This document shows, piece by piece, positions 2,911 through 63,988 of a stretch of 64,000 nucleotides of DNA (positions are counted from its first letter, which is position 1; each line of letters starts with the position of its first letter). The translations under genes and the position numbers were made by a program. Below the pieces are notes generated by a model. It was given only the letters and a program-made list of their open reading frames with translations. It was not told where the DNA came from and searched no databases. Origin of the DNA: Aphelidium insulamus (lineage: Eukaryota; Aphelidiomycota; Aphelidea; Aphelidiaceae). The stretch covers positions 434,001 to 498,000 of the forward strand of contig JAZDSV010000007.1 of the NCBI GenBank assembly GCA_036784855.1, read 5' to 3'.

Positions 2911-4839
2911 TTAGTCGTGCATTGGTAGATCGTGGTCGCTTTGCATGGATGCCTTGTCATCTTTGGTCTCGGACAGTGTTTCGGTGTCTGCGGGGACGGG
3001 TGGAAGAGATTTCTCATCATCTACCTCAATTGTGCTTCCATTGTCACTCAGATTTCCGAGATCGCCTTCGAGCTGATTGTCTTGCAGTCGTGCCCTCCTC
3101 GCTGCCTTCAGCGTCACATACAAGTTTCGCACCAGTACGCTGCAGTAGAACAGGACTGCAAGCCCATTCAATGCCAGGATGATGTAACCAATGACAGACT
3201 GAGTAACTTTGCTCACGTTCAAGTCGGGTATCAGAGCGACTAGTAGGAAAGCTGCCACCACTCGCATGACACTTGCGGCTTGATGCATCCGATTCCCGAA
3301 GCGTGAGTTGAGCGGCCTTCTTATGCCCAGCATCAACATGTACGCGGCTTCGACAGTGAGCAGGAAAACCATTTGTAGAATGGGCACCTTGTACACGCCA
3401 CCAACCACCAGACCAGCAAACAGGCGGTACAGCAGAAACACAACAAAGAACATGTAGGCACTCTCGCTGTAGTTGTTGTACAGAGCACCATACTTCAGGT
3501 ACGTGGGCCGATCCTTGTAGAGCAGTTCGGGTGACTCGTGGAACCGTGACAGGTGCAAGTAGAAGAAGAGTGAGGCGCCCAAGCAGAATGCCGCCAGAAC
3601 CACCGCCGCCAATGTGTACATGCCCCAGTGATCGTCGGGTACGGTGAACTGGTAGATGGAGACGGCGGCCAACGCAAAGAATCCCAAGTACAAAATGCGC
3701 ACCGTATTGCCAACATAAAAGTCAAAGTACGCGCGACGAGACGTGATGATGCTTAGCTTGCGGACGGAGGGCGAAACGCTCGTCTCGGCAATGGAATCTT
3801 GTTCCACCGCCTCGCTGTACGTGTGGAACGAGCTGTCATTGTTCTGTTTCCGTCGACGCTGCACTGCCAGCCAGCATTCAATTAGCAGTCGGCCCACCGC
3901 GGCAATAAGCGACCACACAGCCGCCACCAGCAAAAACAATAGGAATGTGTAGAGGAATATGTTGCGCGGCTCGATTCCAATTTTTCGTGCCAGCAACGGT
4001 AGACCACGATCGTAACCAGGCTGCAGCTGATCCGGAGCAGGCGGTGGCGGCGGAGGAAGTCCCATACCGTTACGTGCATTGTTCACCATGTCATTCACGG
4101 CCTGAATGTACGGCATGAAGCTTGCCCAGCCGAATTTCGCCATTATCTCTGCATAGTACTCTGGGTAGTCCAGATTGTACATTCCCGTCTGCGAGAGGTA
4201 CTGGAACAGGAGCATAAGTTCCACCAGACTGGCTGTGGAAGCAGCCGGCAATGAATGTGTACCCGCCGCGCCACCGGCCACCTGCACCGCCGCCCCCTTA
4301 TTGGATATGATCCACGTTGCACCGGCGTTCGTGATGGCAACCACGGCGGCGCCAATAACAATGGTGGCAATCACCGCATTGGCCACCACGTCCATGCCAC
4401 CGCTCTTCATGATGGCGAAATTGGCCTCCACACACCCGATCAGCTTGGCGTCAATATCATACCACTCCATGCGGCCCACCACGTCCACACCCCACACGCC
4501 CTTCAAGTTGGCGAACTGGAATGATTTGGTGGCCTTGACGAGTCCAACGTTTTTCGGACAGCTACCCAGAATGGAGCACAAATCATCTTCGGACTTGTAC
4601 ACATTCATGCCGATAACGCTGGCAGATGTCAGTGATGTTCCGCCGGCAATGTCCACGGTAGTGGAGCCCAGTGCGTAAAAAACAATCGTCGGCACATCAT
4701 CCACGAATGTTTGCTCAATGAGAACCTGGTCGATCTGAGCCGGCAGACCAGCATCGGGATAGCAGTTGGAGAATGGAACGGCGTACTGCGCCCTCACTGC
4801 ACTGCACCAGAATAGTACGGCATACAGTAGTGACCGCAT
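2911..4839 (-). CDS. TRP-like membrane protein of the fungal Flc/Pkd2 family
   Basis: Single-exon gene of 642 residues, unusual among its intron-rich neighbours. The start is the ATG at 4839, giving a clear signal peptide (MRSLLYAVLFWCSAVRAQ). About 270 residues of lumenal/extracellular ML-like domain follow, with paired cysteines and one hydrophobic stretch, then a Pro-rich linker (PPPPPPAPD). After that comes a block of about eight hydrophobic segments separated by short loops, and an acidic Ser/Thr-rich cytosolic tail. This order (signal peptide, ML-like domain, polytopic TRP-like core, acidic tail) matches fungal flavin-carrier/Pkd2 proteins of the ER, Golgi or plasma membrane. Those are implicated in calcium handling, cell-wall integrity and heme/FAD transport. 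Family assignment is by architecture; the substrate is not inferable. Confidence 0.7.
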   Translation of the reverse strand: MRSLLYAVLFWCSAVRAQYAVPFSNCYPDAGLPAQIDQVLIEQTFVDDVPTIVFYALGSTTVDIAGGTSLTSASVIGMNVYKSEDDLCSILGSCPKNVGLVKATKSFQFANLKGVWGVDVVGRMEWYDIDAKLIGCVEANFAIMKSGGMDVVANAVIATIVIGAAVVAITNAGATWIISNKGAAVQVAGGAAGTHSLPAASTASLVELMLLFQYLSQTGMYNLDYPEYYAEIMAKFGWASFMPYIQAVNDMVNNARNGMGLPPPPPPAPDQLQPGYDRGLPLLARKIGIEPRNIFLYTFLLFLLVAAVWSLIAAVGRLLIECWLAVQRRRKQNNDSSFHTYSEAVEQDSIAETSVSPSVRKLSIITSRRAYFDFYVGNTVRILYLGFFALAAVSIYQFTVPDDHWGMYTLAAVVLAAFCLGASLFFYLHLSRFHESPELLYKDRPTYLKYGALYNNYSESAYMFFVVFLLYRLFAGLVVGGVYKVPILQMVFLLTVEAAYMLMLGIRRPLNSRFGNRMHQAASVMRVVAAFLLVALIPDLNVSKVTQSVIGYIILALNGLAVLFYCSVLVRNLYVTLKAARRARLQDNQLEGDLGNLSDNGSTIEVDDEKSLPPVPADTETLSETKDDKASMQSDHDLPMHD

Positions 4840-59323: not shown

Positions 59324-61674
59324 TTAGGGAGCCGTGGGCGGAATGGTACACTCCTTCTTGTCGCTGAACGGGCCTTCGATTCCATTCTTGACCCAGCGCA
59401 CCCAGAGCTGTGGCCGTGTGTCCCAGGTGATGCGCGGGTGACTGAGCATGATGCTGGTGCCGTTGCGGGCCACGTATTCCGTGTATGACAAGTGCTCCCA
59501 CACCGAGTAGTAGTCCACGGAGACTCCATTCCATGGCGCTTCCCACTCCACCAGCAGGCCCACGAAATTGGTGCCAGCCGTGACCAGCTTGCACTGAATG
59601 GTGGTGGCCACGATCTTGGCGGGGTATAAAGTGCGGGCTGAACACTCACATCAGCCATACAAAGCCTTCACATACTATATCCACACATGCCTGGAGCAGA
59701 GGGCGCCTCTTCAGCTTTGCCAGTGTCCAGAGCATCCTTGATCAGCGCCACCACCTGGTCTACATTTACCCGGGTGTCCTGGTAGATGCGGTAGAGCCAG
59801 TACGGGTCCGTGCAGCACAGATGCGGCTGGACAGTGCGCGCTTCTTGAACACGTTTCCGCTCCGTGGCAGACAGGTGCGCCAGTCCGCCTAGTGCCGCCG
59901 GATAGTCGGCATGCGTGACAGTGTCCTCCTCCCTCTGGTTCTCCCAGGCGCGGTACTGCAACTGCATGCCGGGCAGCCGCGCCATTGTGCGGTATGGCGT
60001 GTAGTTGTCGCTGGGCACGGCGTACGGGAACAGCTCCACCAGCGCGCTCTGTTTCGGCATGAACATTGCCAGGATGAGCATGCTGCCGTGCATGCCCACC
60101 GCGGCTTTGGCGCGCGACAGTTTGGCCACCAGTTCCGCGAATGACAGGTCCTTCATGCGCACAATGTCGACGGGGGTGGCGAACGTGGTCGACATTGACT
60201 CGCGCAACTCTTGCTCATTCAGGATGAGCCGGTTCTCGCTGCGGGACAGGATGACCATGCGGTCGGGCGGGGCCACCGATTCAAACTCGTCCACCGGGTC
60301 GAATATGCCCAGCTTGTAGCGGATATAGTCGGCGGCCTGGCGCACATGATGCCCGCTCACAGCCTTGTCCTTGATGGGCCCCTGCGGCTGTGTGAAGCCG
60401 TACTGATACCACGAGAGCTGTTTTGTCTGGCCCACCACCACGTCCTCGAACATTGTGACGCGGGCCTTGTCGGCGCAGAGTGTCTGGCGCGTGCGCAGCG
60501 GATAGTCGCTGAGCAGGCGGAACAGGTGCGCGTAGTCTCCCTCCGGCATCTCGTCGTAGAACTGGATGTAGTTGTCCGTGCGGAAGTTGGCAAATGTCGG
60601 CTGGTTCTTGTCGGTGGTGGTGGGCGAGAACTGGCGCATCAGCCAGTACAGGCCGAGGAAGTCGTCGTGCAGCGTGTGCATGATGTTGCCCACGTGGAAC
60701 CGGGCCATCAGGTAGGTGCGCCGTCCGATGAAGGAGACCAGCGAGTCGCGGAAAAAGTCGTGTGACACTTCCTGGTAGTGGAAGTAGAACGCCGAATGAT
60801 CGTCGATGGATGTCAGGTCCATCAGGGCCAGCGAACGGTTCTCGGGGACATTGTGCAGGATGCTGCGGTCCGTGATGACGGCAAAGAAGGCCTCGTGTTG
60901 CGGGTGGTAGTAAAGATTGCGGAAGCGGCAGATTCTGAGTTGTATAGTTAGCTATGTAGTTCACCACCCGGACACTCTACGCCACATACACATACCTGTC
61001 GCGCTGTGTGTCGCCATAGCACCACACGGACGTGGCGGGGAATGAGGGGTATATGCGGCGCTGTGGCTCAGCCGCCTGGACATTGAACTTGTCGGCCGTA
61101 ACTACTGCCGCGTCAATGTGTGCCGGTATGGTGGTAGATTACATAGACTCACCCTTGACATTACTTAGAGCTTCCGTCAGCTTCTGGCTGCGGACCCGTT
61201 CAGTCTCCAGCGCGGCACTAGCCTCCTCTAGCTTCCTCCTGGTGTCCACCAGACTCTCCTTCAATGCCGCTGTGAGCTCTGCCTGAGCGGTGATCTTGCC
61301 GTAGATGGCTGTGTGTTTAGTCAGTGGGTCAATCAGCAATGGGTGTGGCGCAGTCACACACTGTCCAGGCGACTCAGAACTTGTGCCGATGCCTGCTCTT
61401 CCTGCACCGCTGCCATAAGCGATGCCACCGCGGGGTCCACTCTATCAGCTGCATTGCATGCGTCAAGACACTGGCACTAAGTATGGAAGTATGTGAGTAG
61501 AACCAGCTTGCCTGAACCCTGATCAATGTGCGCAAGGTTCTGCGCCACCATCTGCAGCGCCACGACTAGCGATACGGCAAGCACCACCACCACACCCAGG
61601 CCGCAGTGTCGGCGGTACCGCGCCAGCATTGGCGTCCACATGAACGCTCCATTCCGTTTGATAGTTGTAACCAT
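59324..61674 (-). CDS. POMGNT2-like GT61 glycosyltransferase with C-terminal FN3
   Basis: Six exons (61674-61512, 61448-61362, 61308-61153, 61104-60996, 60934-59676, 59637-59324) give 695 residues. It is a type II membrane protein: short cytosolic N-terminus, TM LGVVVVLAVSLVVALQMV, coiled-coil stem, then the GT61/DUF563 domain. Key blocks: NIMHTLHDDFLGLYWLMRQF, SWYQYGFTQPQGPIKDKAVSG, ILSRSENRLILNEQEL, VGMHGSMLILAMFMP, ALVELFPYAVPSDNYTPYRT and HLCCTDPYWLYRIYQDTRV. A C-terminal fibronectin-III-like domain follows. This order and motif set match animal POMGNT2, which adds beta-1,4-GlcNAc to O-mannose in the ER. The stem is longer than in animals. Intron 61449-61511 is GC-AG; the last intron is only 38 bp. 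Confidence 0.9.
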
Positions 61675-62030: not shown

Positions 62031-62252
62031 ATGTCTGAACCAGGCACGTAGCACTGTACAGTGTGGTGTGTAGACGGCTAACAGCACCCGTGACAGTGAT
62101 TGCCATCACCGCCGCGCCGAATGAACAGGCGGCTGAGATAAAGTCGCAGATACGCGCGCTCAAGGGCGAGCTGAAGGCCTGGGAGTACAAGTTCAACGAT
62201 GAACACGGTCGCAAGCCGCAGAAGGAGGACATTCTGCAGGACAAGGCCATCG

Positions 62253-62283
<31 letters not shown>

Positions 62284-63988
62284 CAAGTGGCCACCCCGTG
62301 CTGACATGCGCGGCAGCCAAAAAGTACAAGCAGTACAGCAAGCTGAAGGCGCGTCAGAATGAGGAGAATGGTGGTCACGGCGACATTGAGATGAGTGCCA
62401 GTACCGACGCGCTGCTGGTCACCATGGGCCGCGACAAGACCGAGGAGGCGCTGTCATCGGTGCCGCCCCCGATGCCACCGCTGGACACCTATGCCGACCT
62501 CAAGATCAACAACACCAACAACAGTGACGCCAAGGCCCGAGCATCGCTGGCACTGGCCACCAATACTGATTCGGCGACCAAAGTGTTGGAGTTGGCCGCA
62601 CAGTCTCCGCAGTCGGCCACCTCGCCCCAGCTGGCTGATGGTATGCATGATGTACTGATGGGAGTGTCACACGTGTCACTGACACACCTGTTACACGCGT
62701 AGCCAACGCTGCCGTGAGCGGCTCCGAAGACAGTCTGGACCAGCCCACCGTCGCGCCCGAGATACTCGCCCATCCAACCGTGGTGTTCCGGTCCACGCAC
62801 CCGCTCCTCAAACACCTCTCATCCAAGGAGCTGATGGGCGCAAAGGCCAACAACAGCGGTGCCACTTCACCCAAGGCCGTGGATGGCGGAGCTGCCTTGT
62901 CCAAAATTGATGAGACTGCACCGGCAGACTCGGCCGCTCCGTTACCAGTTGCAGCAGCCAATGCTGTGCTGGCCACTCTCAAGTCAAGTGCCATGTCCAG
63001 CGACTTGGATCTCTTTGCGTATGTGCCTTGTTGAATATTGTGTATCTGTGTCAACTATATTGTATACATGCCGCCTTTCTACACCATTATACCTACAGAC
63101 GTGTGAATGCATCTCGTCATCTTACTCATATCACTTTATGGACAGGCGCATTCCCAAGGGCCAGGTGCTGCGATGTCAGCTGGTGCGCAAGTCGGACGGC
63201 GTGGATCGCGCGTTCCCCAGCTACTTTCTCATCAACGAGGCCAACGACAAATTTATGCTGGCGGGCAGAAAGCGAAAAAAGACCAAACTGCCGCACTATG
63301 TCATCTCCACCAACGCGGATGATCTGAGCAAGCAGAGCAATGGCTACGTCGCTAAAGTCAAGTAAGCTTTTGTTATATGTGTATCGTTTGGATCATTAGA
63401 TATACTATAGGGCTACCGACTCCACATCAACCAAGTTTGTGACCTGTGACACGAGGGTATTTCCTGGTACGGCTGCATCTGCGGAAAGCAAAGAGTTATT
63501 GGGCATTTATTATGCACGGGGAACGGCGCCTCGTGAGATCAAAGTGGCTGTCAGAAGCGACGAGCCAACAACCACTCCGGCTCCGGCAAGTGCAATGTCT
63601 CTAATTAGCTCTTTTATCATTCTAACGAAGCAGACACTGAATATTCTGAATGAGATGGAGACCAACAAGGCATCGGTGCTGCAGTTGAAAAACAAACTGC
63701 CCACTTTCAACCAACAGACCAAGACTTATGCAATGAACTTTGGCGGCCGCGTGAAGCTGCCATCCGTAAAGAACTTTCAGCTATGCCTGGCCTCTGATCG
63801 TAAGCCGCTTGTACAATCTTTATAATGAAAATATTAACTTTAATTTATTGCGCGCAGCCAACAGTTTGATCTTCCAATTCGGCCGCGTCACCGAAGACAG
63901 CTTTGCACTGGATGCATTCTACCCGCTGACACCGGTCGAAGCGTTCTCCATCGCGCTATCGGCGTTTGACGCGCTCGGTCACGTTTGA
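62031..63988 (+). CDS. Tubby-domain protein with N-terminal Sld2/DRC1-like motif
   Basis: Seven exons (62031-62043, 62097-62252, 62317-62640, 62703-63018, 63146-63361, 63411-63799, 63858-63988) give 514 residues. Residues ~12-70 (QIRALKGELKAWEYKFNDEHGRKP, QKEDILQDKAIAKKYKQYSKLKA) resemble the N-terminal Sld2/DRC1 replication domain. A Ser/Ala-rich linker follows. From ~residue 270 a complete Tubby domain runs to the C-terminus: IPKGQVLRCQLVRKSDGVDRAFPSYFL, the phosphoinositide-binding block AGRKRKKTK, MNFGGRVKLPSVKNFQL, FQFGRVTEDSFAL and AFSIALSAFD. Tubby domains bind PI(4,5)P2 and traffic ciliary cargo in animals. Intron 62044-62096 is probably GC-AG. A 48-bp in-frame gcaagt...cag segment at 63586-63633 may be another intron. 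Confidence 0.85.
62257..62283. repeat. (GT)n microsatellite
   Basis: An uninterrupted GT run just inside the donor of intron 2 of the Sld2-Tubby gene (gtgagtgtgt...). Confidence 0.9.

Follow-up and report, generated by a model that had tools for sequence, protein, structure and literature searches.

A gene of the chytrid-like fungus Aphelidium insulamus, located on the forward strand at positions 62031 to 63988 of a 64,000-nucleotide stretch of contig JAZDSV010000007.1 (the whole stretch being called the window in the following), encodes a protein in which an N-terminal module of the RecQ4/Sld2 type is fused to a complete Tubby domain. The same architecture is present in chytrid gene models and, as far as sequence comparison goes, it is almost certainly real and conserved in chytrid-type fungi. 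Taken as a whole, our reading is that the product is a divergent Tubby-like protein, in which the RecQ4/Sld2-type module replaces the TULP-type helix, and which would serve as a membrane-to-nucleus adaptor; we assign to this complete statement a probability of about 50%.

Domain content and gene structure

Only two families were found when the whole protein was scanned with Pfam, and no RecQ helicase was among them. Tub (PF01167, cut-off 27 bits) matched residues 272-494 with 168.2 bits (E 3.7e-49; profile positions 5-255 of 256), and Drc1-Sld2 (PF11719, cut-off 28 bits) matched residues 24-72 with 66.6 bits (E 4.3e-18; profile positions 2-50 of 416), the corresponding part of RECQL4 being a homeodomain-like bundle. 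No other family in the library beat Drc1-Sld2 at the N-terminus, the next best showing an E-value of 0.03. Both a Sld2/RecQL4-type N-terminus and a full C-terminal Tubby domain with its basic block (AGRKRKKTK) had been proposed by the first-pass annotation, made from the letters alone, and both are confirmed. The solved structures matched at the C-terminus were the Tubby domains of TUB, TULP3 and TULP1 (PDB 1s31, tubby, E 2.4e-41); for the module, the best one was the human RECQL4 N-terminus, 2kmu (E 0.002 with a 75-residue query, 0.044 with the full protein).

As a yardstick, a 44-residue piece of the window protein scored 62.6 bits against PF11719, versus 38.2 bits for a 48-residue piece of human RECQL4. 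Aligned to the best chytrid relative, the 44-residue module scored 149, the maximum in 2000 shuffles being 57; aligned to the human RECQL4 N-terminus it scored 67, a value reached by none of 2000 shuffles. Identity amounts to 14 of 47 positions with the human RECQL4 piece and to 23-28 of 44 (52-64%) with six chytrid proteins. For the Podochytrium protein, an AlphaFold model of residues 1-71 contains three helices, with a mean predicted local distance difference test (pLDDT) of 91-93 over positions 11-40 (76.8 over all 71 residues; predicted template modelling score 0.54); structural comparison of this model returned no significant match. Judged from these alignments and profiles, the protein carries at its N-terminus a genuine Drc1-Sld2/RecQ4-type module of about 50 residues, predicted to be helical.

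The seven-exon chain of the first-pass annotation (62031-62043, 62097-62252, 62317-62640, 62703-63018, 63146-63361, 63411-63799 and 63858-63988) was rebuilt from the DNA, and the claimed in-frame join of 514 residues, from the ATG at 62031 to the Tubby stop codon ending at 63988, was reproduced exactly. The exon set itself stands only in part, as exon 6 is probably split by a GC-AG intron and exon 1 is provisional. The gene structure is therefore taken, as the probable one, to comprise eight exons and 499 residues, and its features are the following.

62031..62043, plus strand: exon 1 (provisional), MSEP; GC donor at 62044 (CAG/GCACGT)
62097..62252, plus strand: exon 2, with the beginning of the RecQ4/Sld2-type module; alternative acceptor at 62085
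62153..62363, plus strand: RecQ4/Sld2-type module, residues 24-72 (PF11719, 66.6 bits), split by the intron 62253-62316
62317..62640, plus strand: exon 3, end of the module and first half of the linker; third-position GC (GC3) 0.78 for the coding frame, against 0.58 and 0.46 for the other two frames
62641..62702, plus strand: intron 3, joining the module-bearing to the Tubby-bearing exons; GT-AG, 62 bases, phase 1
62703..63018, plus strand: exon 4, remaining half of the linker, reaching the Tubby domain start
63146..63361, plus strand: exon 5, Tubby domain, with the basic block AGRKRKKTK
63150..63970, plus strand: Tubby domain, residues 272-494, introns inside (PF01167, 168.2 bits; PDB 1s31, E 2.4e-41)
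63411..63585, plus strand: exon 6, Tubby domain; GC3 not highest in the coding frame
63586..63630, plus strand: probable GC-AG intron inside exon 6 of the first-pass annotation; GCAAGT donor, AG acceptor, 45 bases
63631..63799, plus strand: exon 7, Tubby domain
63858..63988, plus strand: exon 8, Tubby C-terminus and stop codon

GC3 peaks in the coding frame in six of the seven exons longer than 100 bases, the exception being 63411-63585. By inspection, the donor at 62044 is the sole usable one for the ATG at 62031, with acceptors at 62085 or 62097. Because exon 1 rests on this one GC donor, and 139 in-frame routes into exon 2 were counted (60 of them listed; ATGs scanned from 61001 on), the first 20 residues or so are provisional.

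The segment 63586-63630 is, on sequence grounds, probably a GC-AG intron. It can be removed in frame (as can 48 bases, by using the next AG) and, if translated, it would produce the hydrophobic run ASAMSLISSFIILTK. The loop leading from the PRE..VA strand to L.NK measures 28 residues without the segment and 43 with it, and 28-31 residues in six relatives of the fungal clade (P0001, P0002, P0003, P0004, P0063 and P0066; the pattern used for measuring did not match P0064 and others). Loop length alone is no proof of the intron, because the same loop has 34 residues in the canonical Tubby P0044. Removal brings a small gain only in Tub score, 168.2 versus 167.5 bits, and a TCTAAC lies near the acceptor, perhaps too near for a branch site. 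Neither correction touches the N-terminal module, and the intron falls in a loop of the Tubby domain. GC donors are apparently used by two introns of the fusion gene (62044 and 63586), and this type of intron may be frequent in the genome.

Recurrence in chytrids and Tubby phylogeny

In a full-length search of 5.8 billion proteins, 7998 candidates were scored and 61 of them had an E-value of at most 0.001. The top relative, P0001, is a 779-residue Podochytrium protein with both PF11719 and PF01167; a search with its first 60 residues gave 26 candidates and six reported rows, one of them P0001 itself. By Pfam scan, the two families occur in the same order in five proteins, namely P0001, P0062 (Physocladia obscura), P0063 (Obelidium), P0064 and P0066 (both Chytriomyces). 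All five lineages checked (Podochytrium, Obelidium, Entophlyctis, Physocladia and Clydaea) belong to Chytridiomycota; Chytriomyces and Siphonaria are chytrids as well. Pieces cut to the module match PF11719 in six of six chytrid proteins, although the whole-protein score of P0063 is only 31 bits, near the cut-off of 28. P0065 (Entophlyctis) carries the module, and its gene model stops where the Tubby domain would start; P0004 (Siphonaria) has a disturbed start and a module remnant, KDIAADKVIAKKYKAYAKMK, without a Pfam match to the module. Three observations weigh against a general conservation of the fusion: the 323-residue model of P0003 (Clydaea) is without the module, P0002 (307 residues) starts within the linker and shows no module, and the Tubby match of P0062 is split in two.

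Within exon 4, the stretch PEILAHPTVVFRSTHPLLKHLSSKE is similar to PEVLAKPPITFKSTHPLLKDLSSKD of P0002. The linkers of P0001 and P0062-P0066 share the motifs NFK.RKSTI..GPI and QIRV.TP, which by eye do not occur in the window linker. PF26116 is precomputed in five of the six chytrid proteins of the module search (P0001, P0062, P0063, P0064 and P0065), so that the N-terminal part may fall under more than one family.

These data also bear on whether two adjacent genes had been joined by the splicing of the first-pass annotation. In favour of such an error, the join depends on a single 62-base intron and exon 1 is provisional. Against it, reading through intron 3 adds 20 residues and then meets a stop, the first in-frame methionine of exon 4 is residue 45 of the exon, and five other species have gene models with the same domain order. 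Two genes are strongly disfavoured; this is a single gene, as the splicing logic and the recurrence of the architecture among chytrid gene models both indicate.

According to the first-pass annotation, no characterised protein is known to pair these modules. This stands insofar as none is described in the literature searched, where no publication naming both 'tubby' and 'sld2' was found (most subscription papers lying outside the search); uncharacterised database entries do have the pair. In the portion available of PMC5415576, a paper with tubby and chytrid, Tubby is given only as a transcription-factor family. As far as searched, the pairing lies in sequence databases and is apparently undescribed, both modules being known singly. 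P0062, a Tubby protein, carries the UniRef name 'DNA replication regulator SLD2', an example of how automatic naming can mislead.

Trees of the Tubby domain were built from a pool of 68 sequences (66 proteins, the window protein and its paralog), 39 in the first tree and 29 in the second. Weak or short matches and many vertebrate and insect Tubbies were left out of both; the second was also cleared of long branches and of some further animal or other rows, with P0002 cut to residues 51-250. Both trees unite the window domain with P0002 and seven chytrid Tubby domains in a single clade (100/98 and then 100/99), in which P0002 is the sister of the window domain. A long-branch warning was given in the first tree (P0043), and none was named in the second.

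The paralog is a canonical-type Tubby gene of the same genome (L008:2888-4804, G000:C118; six exons joined, 548 residues), which groups with canonical Tubbies. A topology uniting the window protein and this paralog as a pair was rejected (approximately unbiased test, p-AU 1.7e-6). By eye, phase-2 introns of the two genes coincide at two places, the entry of the Tubby domain and the region of K330/R332 in mouse Tub numbering, and hence the genes share an old origin. The start of the paralog, DPLKKQRLERLRDAEEQKRRAKSAK, matches the N-terminal helix of the canonical-type proteins P0019 and P0044, neither score being reached in 1000 shuffles. With the same references, the TULP-type helix was not found in window residues 1-110 or 1-255, where 653 to 823 of 1000 shuffles reached the score. 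In the gene adjoining the paralog, a short intron-like stretch (gtaagcagcggcattatacg...) occurs twice together with its flanks, at L008:5105 and L008:5347, in an apparent tandem duplication.

Membrane, nucleus and replication

The residues of mouse Tub contacting phosphatidylinositol 4,5-bisphosphate, PI(4,5)P2, are taken here to be N310, K330, R332 and R363, with numbering by an offset of 240. At the positions aligned to these residues the window protein has H, K, K and K, that is, lysine at three of the four (K330, R332 and R363), where charge is retained. In PMC2755470, R332H is reported to reduce the affinity of Tubby. The Tubby end would thus be likely to bind the membrane, perhaps more weakly.

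Chytrid zoospores swim without growing and then switch abruptly to growth, which would make a membrane-released regulator plausible in chytrids. In the mechanism that we favour, the Tubby end would hold the protein at a PI(4,5)P2-rich membrane and, upon release, the N-terminal module would bind a nuclear partner, either DNA or a chromatin protein. As an adaptor or regulator tethered to the membrane, the protein would follow the logic put forward for mammalian Tubby; PMC2755470 describes the release of Tubby from the membrane to the nucleus through Gq and phospholipase C as a proposed mechanism. The first 54 residues of RecQ4 are described in PMC4757822 as a homeodomain-like bundle; such a module at the N-terminus would fit a shuttle between membrane and nucleus. 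Taken by itself, this phosphoinositide-gated route is quite possible, though we put it at somewhat less than an even chance.

Its main rival takes the module for a helix bundle of general use in protein interaction; the protein would then act in cytoplasmic or flagellar trafficking as an adaptor like TULP3, with a partner other than the intraflagellar transport complex A (IFT-A) and nothing nuclear about it. TULP3 is indeed such a two-ended adaptor, its N-terminal helix binding IFT-A and its Tubby domain binding lipid and cargo, according to PMC11346432. An IFT46-type protein is encoded in the genome, so that the species is probably flagellate, and the PF26116 calls on five of six chytrid proteins would agree with an N-terminus belonging to more than one family. 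On the other side, the clear matches of the module are to the RecQ4/Sld2 family, known from nuclear proteins, and a canonical TULP-like gene is already present in the genome (L008). A trafficking adaptor with a new partner is considered a real alternative, of somewhat lower probability.

The first-pass annotation had also suggested a possible connection to replication control, which is not supported. Only 49 of the 416 positions of the profile are matched, all within the first 50 or so, and the match ends at position 50, so that the conserved C-terminal region of Sld2 is not covered; no helicase is present. In the window linker (216 residues) serine or threonine followed by proline (S/T-P) was seen 3 times versus 3.0 expected, with 0 full cyclin-dependent kinase (CDK) sites, so that it shows no site cluster of the kind by which Sld2 binds Dpb11. 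In five chytrid linkers S/T-P occurs 8 to 10 times, versus 6.7 to 9.1 expected; each of the chytrid linkers, about 490-530 residues long, contains between 1 and 5 full CDK sites, a point in favour of a replication factor. PMC10570026 argues against RecQ4 being the functional Sld2 in higher eukaryotes, and reports that Cdc45 and GINS still load in Xenopus extract after RecQ4 depletion.

A working Sld2/RecQ4-type initiation factor tethered to the membrane, perhaps the only one of the species, would agree with the six-frame search of the whole assembly by PF11719, which gave one match, to exon 2 of the fusion gene only (36.8 bits), although such a search can overlook split or divergent exons. The three strongest RecQ loci are closest to BLM (C34), RECQ1 (C128) and RECQL4 (C120, L035:4349-4978; E 1.7e-34, next WRN with 3.6e-24). 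At C120 only the second helicase half is visible, the first half not being seen beside it, and within 9.5 kb no stretch scores above 39 against the module, versus 173 for the window's own stretch. This RECQL4-like piece may be a cut gene or an assembly fault. Since the missing module could reflect a missed exon or faulty assembly, the replication reading is graded as improbable. The roughly 850 bases upstream of the C120 helicase half (3548-4405) form an open frame on the opposite strand, and a WLM-domain metalloprotease frame (PF08325, 167 bits) lies nearby at L035:2691-3521.

In the boldest reading, chytrid-type fungi would have a RecQ4/Sld2-kind replication or chromatin factor that a Tubby domain keeps at the plasma or flagellar membrane until phosphoinositide breakdown sets it free, for example at zoospore encystment and cell-cycle restart, the module being the only one of Sld2 type left in A. 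insulamus; we regard this as unlikely. The data suggest that the N-terminal module of RecQ4/Sld2 type moves between proteins as a unit and does not by itself indicate a replication function. The conserved fusion provides natural evidence for two modules serving one task. If the membrane-to-nucleus mechanism is true, a single polypeptide combines a lipid-sensing domain with a replication-factor module, and whether Tubby proteins act in the nucleus, as has been proposed, becomes testable in a protein with its own candidate DNA-binding end.

Neighbouring genes and known systems

Divergently oriented to the fusion gene, a neighbour with a glycosyltransferase family 61 (GT61) domain (PF04577, 57 bits) is located at 59668-60822 of the window, on the minus strand. 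Just beyond the right end of the window (L009:2121-2354), the downstream gene resembles EFR3 (PF21072, 18.1 bits, under the cut-off of 27). EFR3 is a plasma-membrane scaffold of phosphatidylinositol 4-kinase.

The window protein can be compared with three known groups. Like the N-terminus of RECQL4/Sld2 (PF11719; 2kmu), it has a module of about 50 residues with the landmarks AWE, GRKP and Y..Y..LK, which read AWE, GR.P and Y..Y..LK in the human piece; unlike RECQL4/Sld2, it is fused to Tubby and has neither the rest of the Sld2 profile, nor an excess of CDK sites, nor a RecQ helicase. With Tubby-like proteins such as TUB and TULP3 it shares the C-terminal Tubby domain, the basic block, the lysine at K330 and the plan of an N-terminal interaction module followed by a linker, whereas it differs in being without the TULP-type helix, in being without 'LGFKGPR' and the C-terminal KLACE seen in the canonical members of the second tree, and in carrying the RecQ4/Sld2-type module. 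The uncharacterised chytrid proteins (P0001, P0062, P0063, P0064 and P0066) have both domains in the same order and belong to the same Tubby clade, but their linker is longer and differently composed, for an overall length of 750-809 residues.
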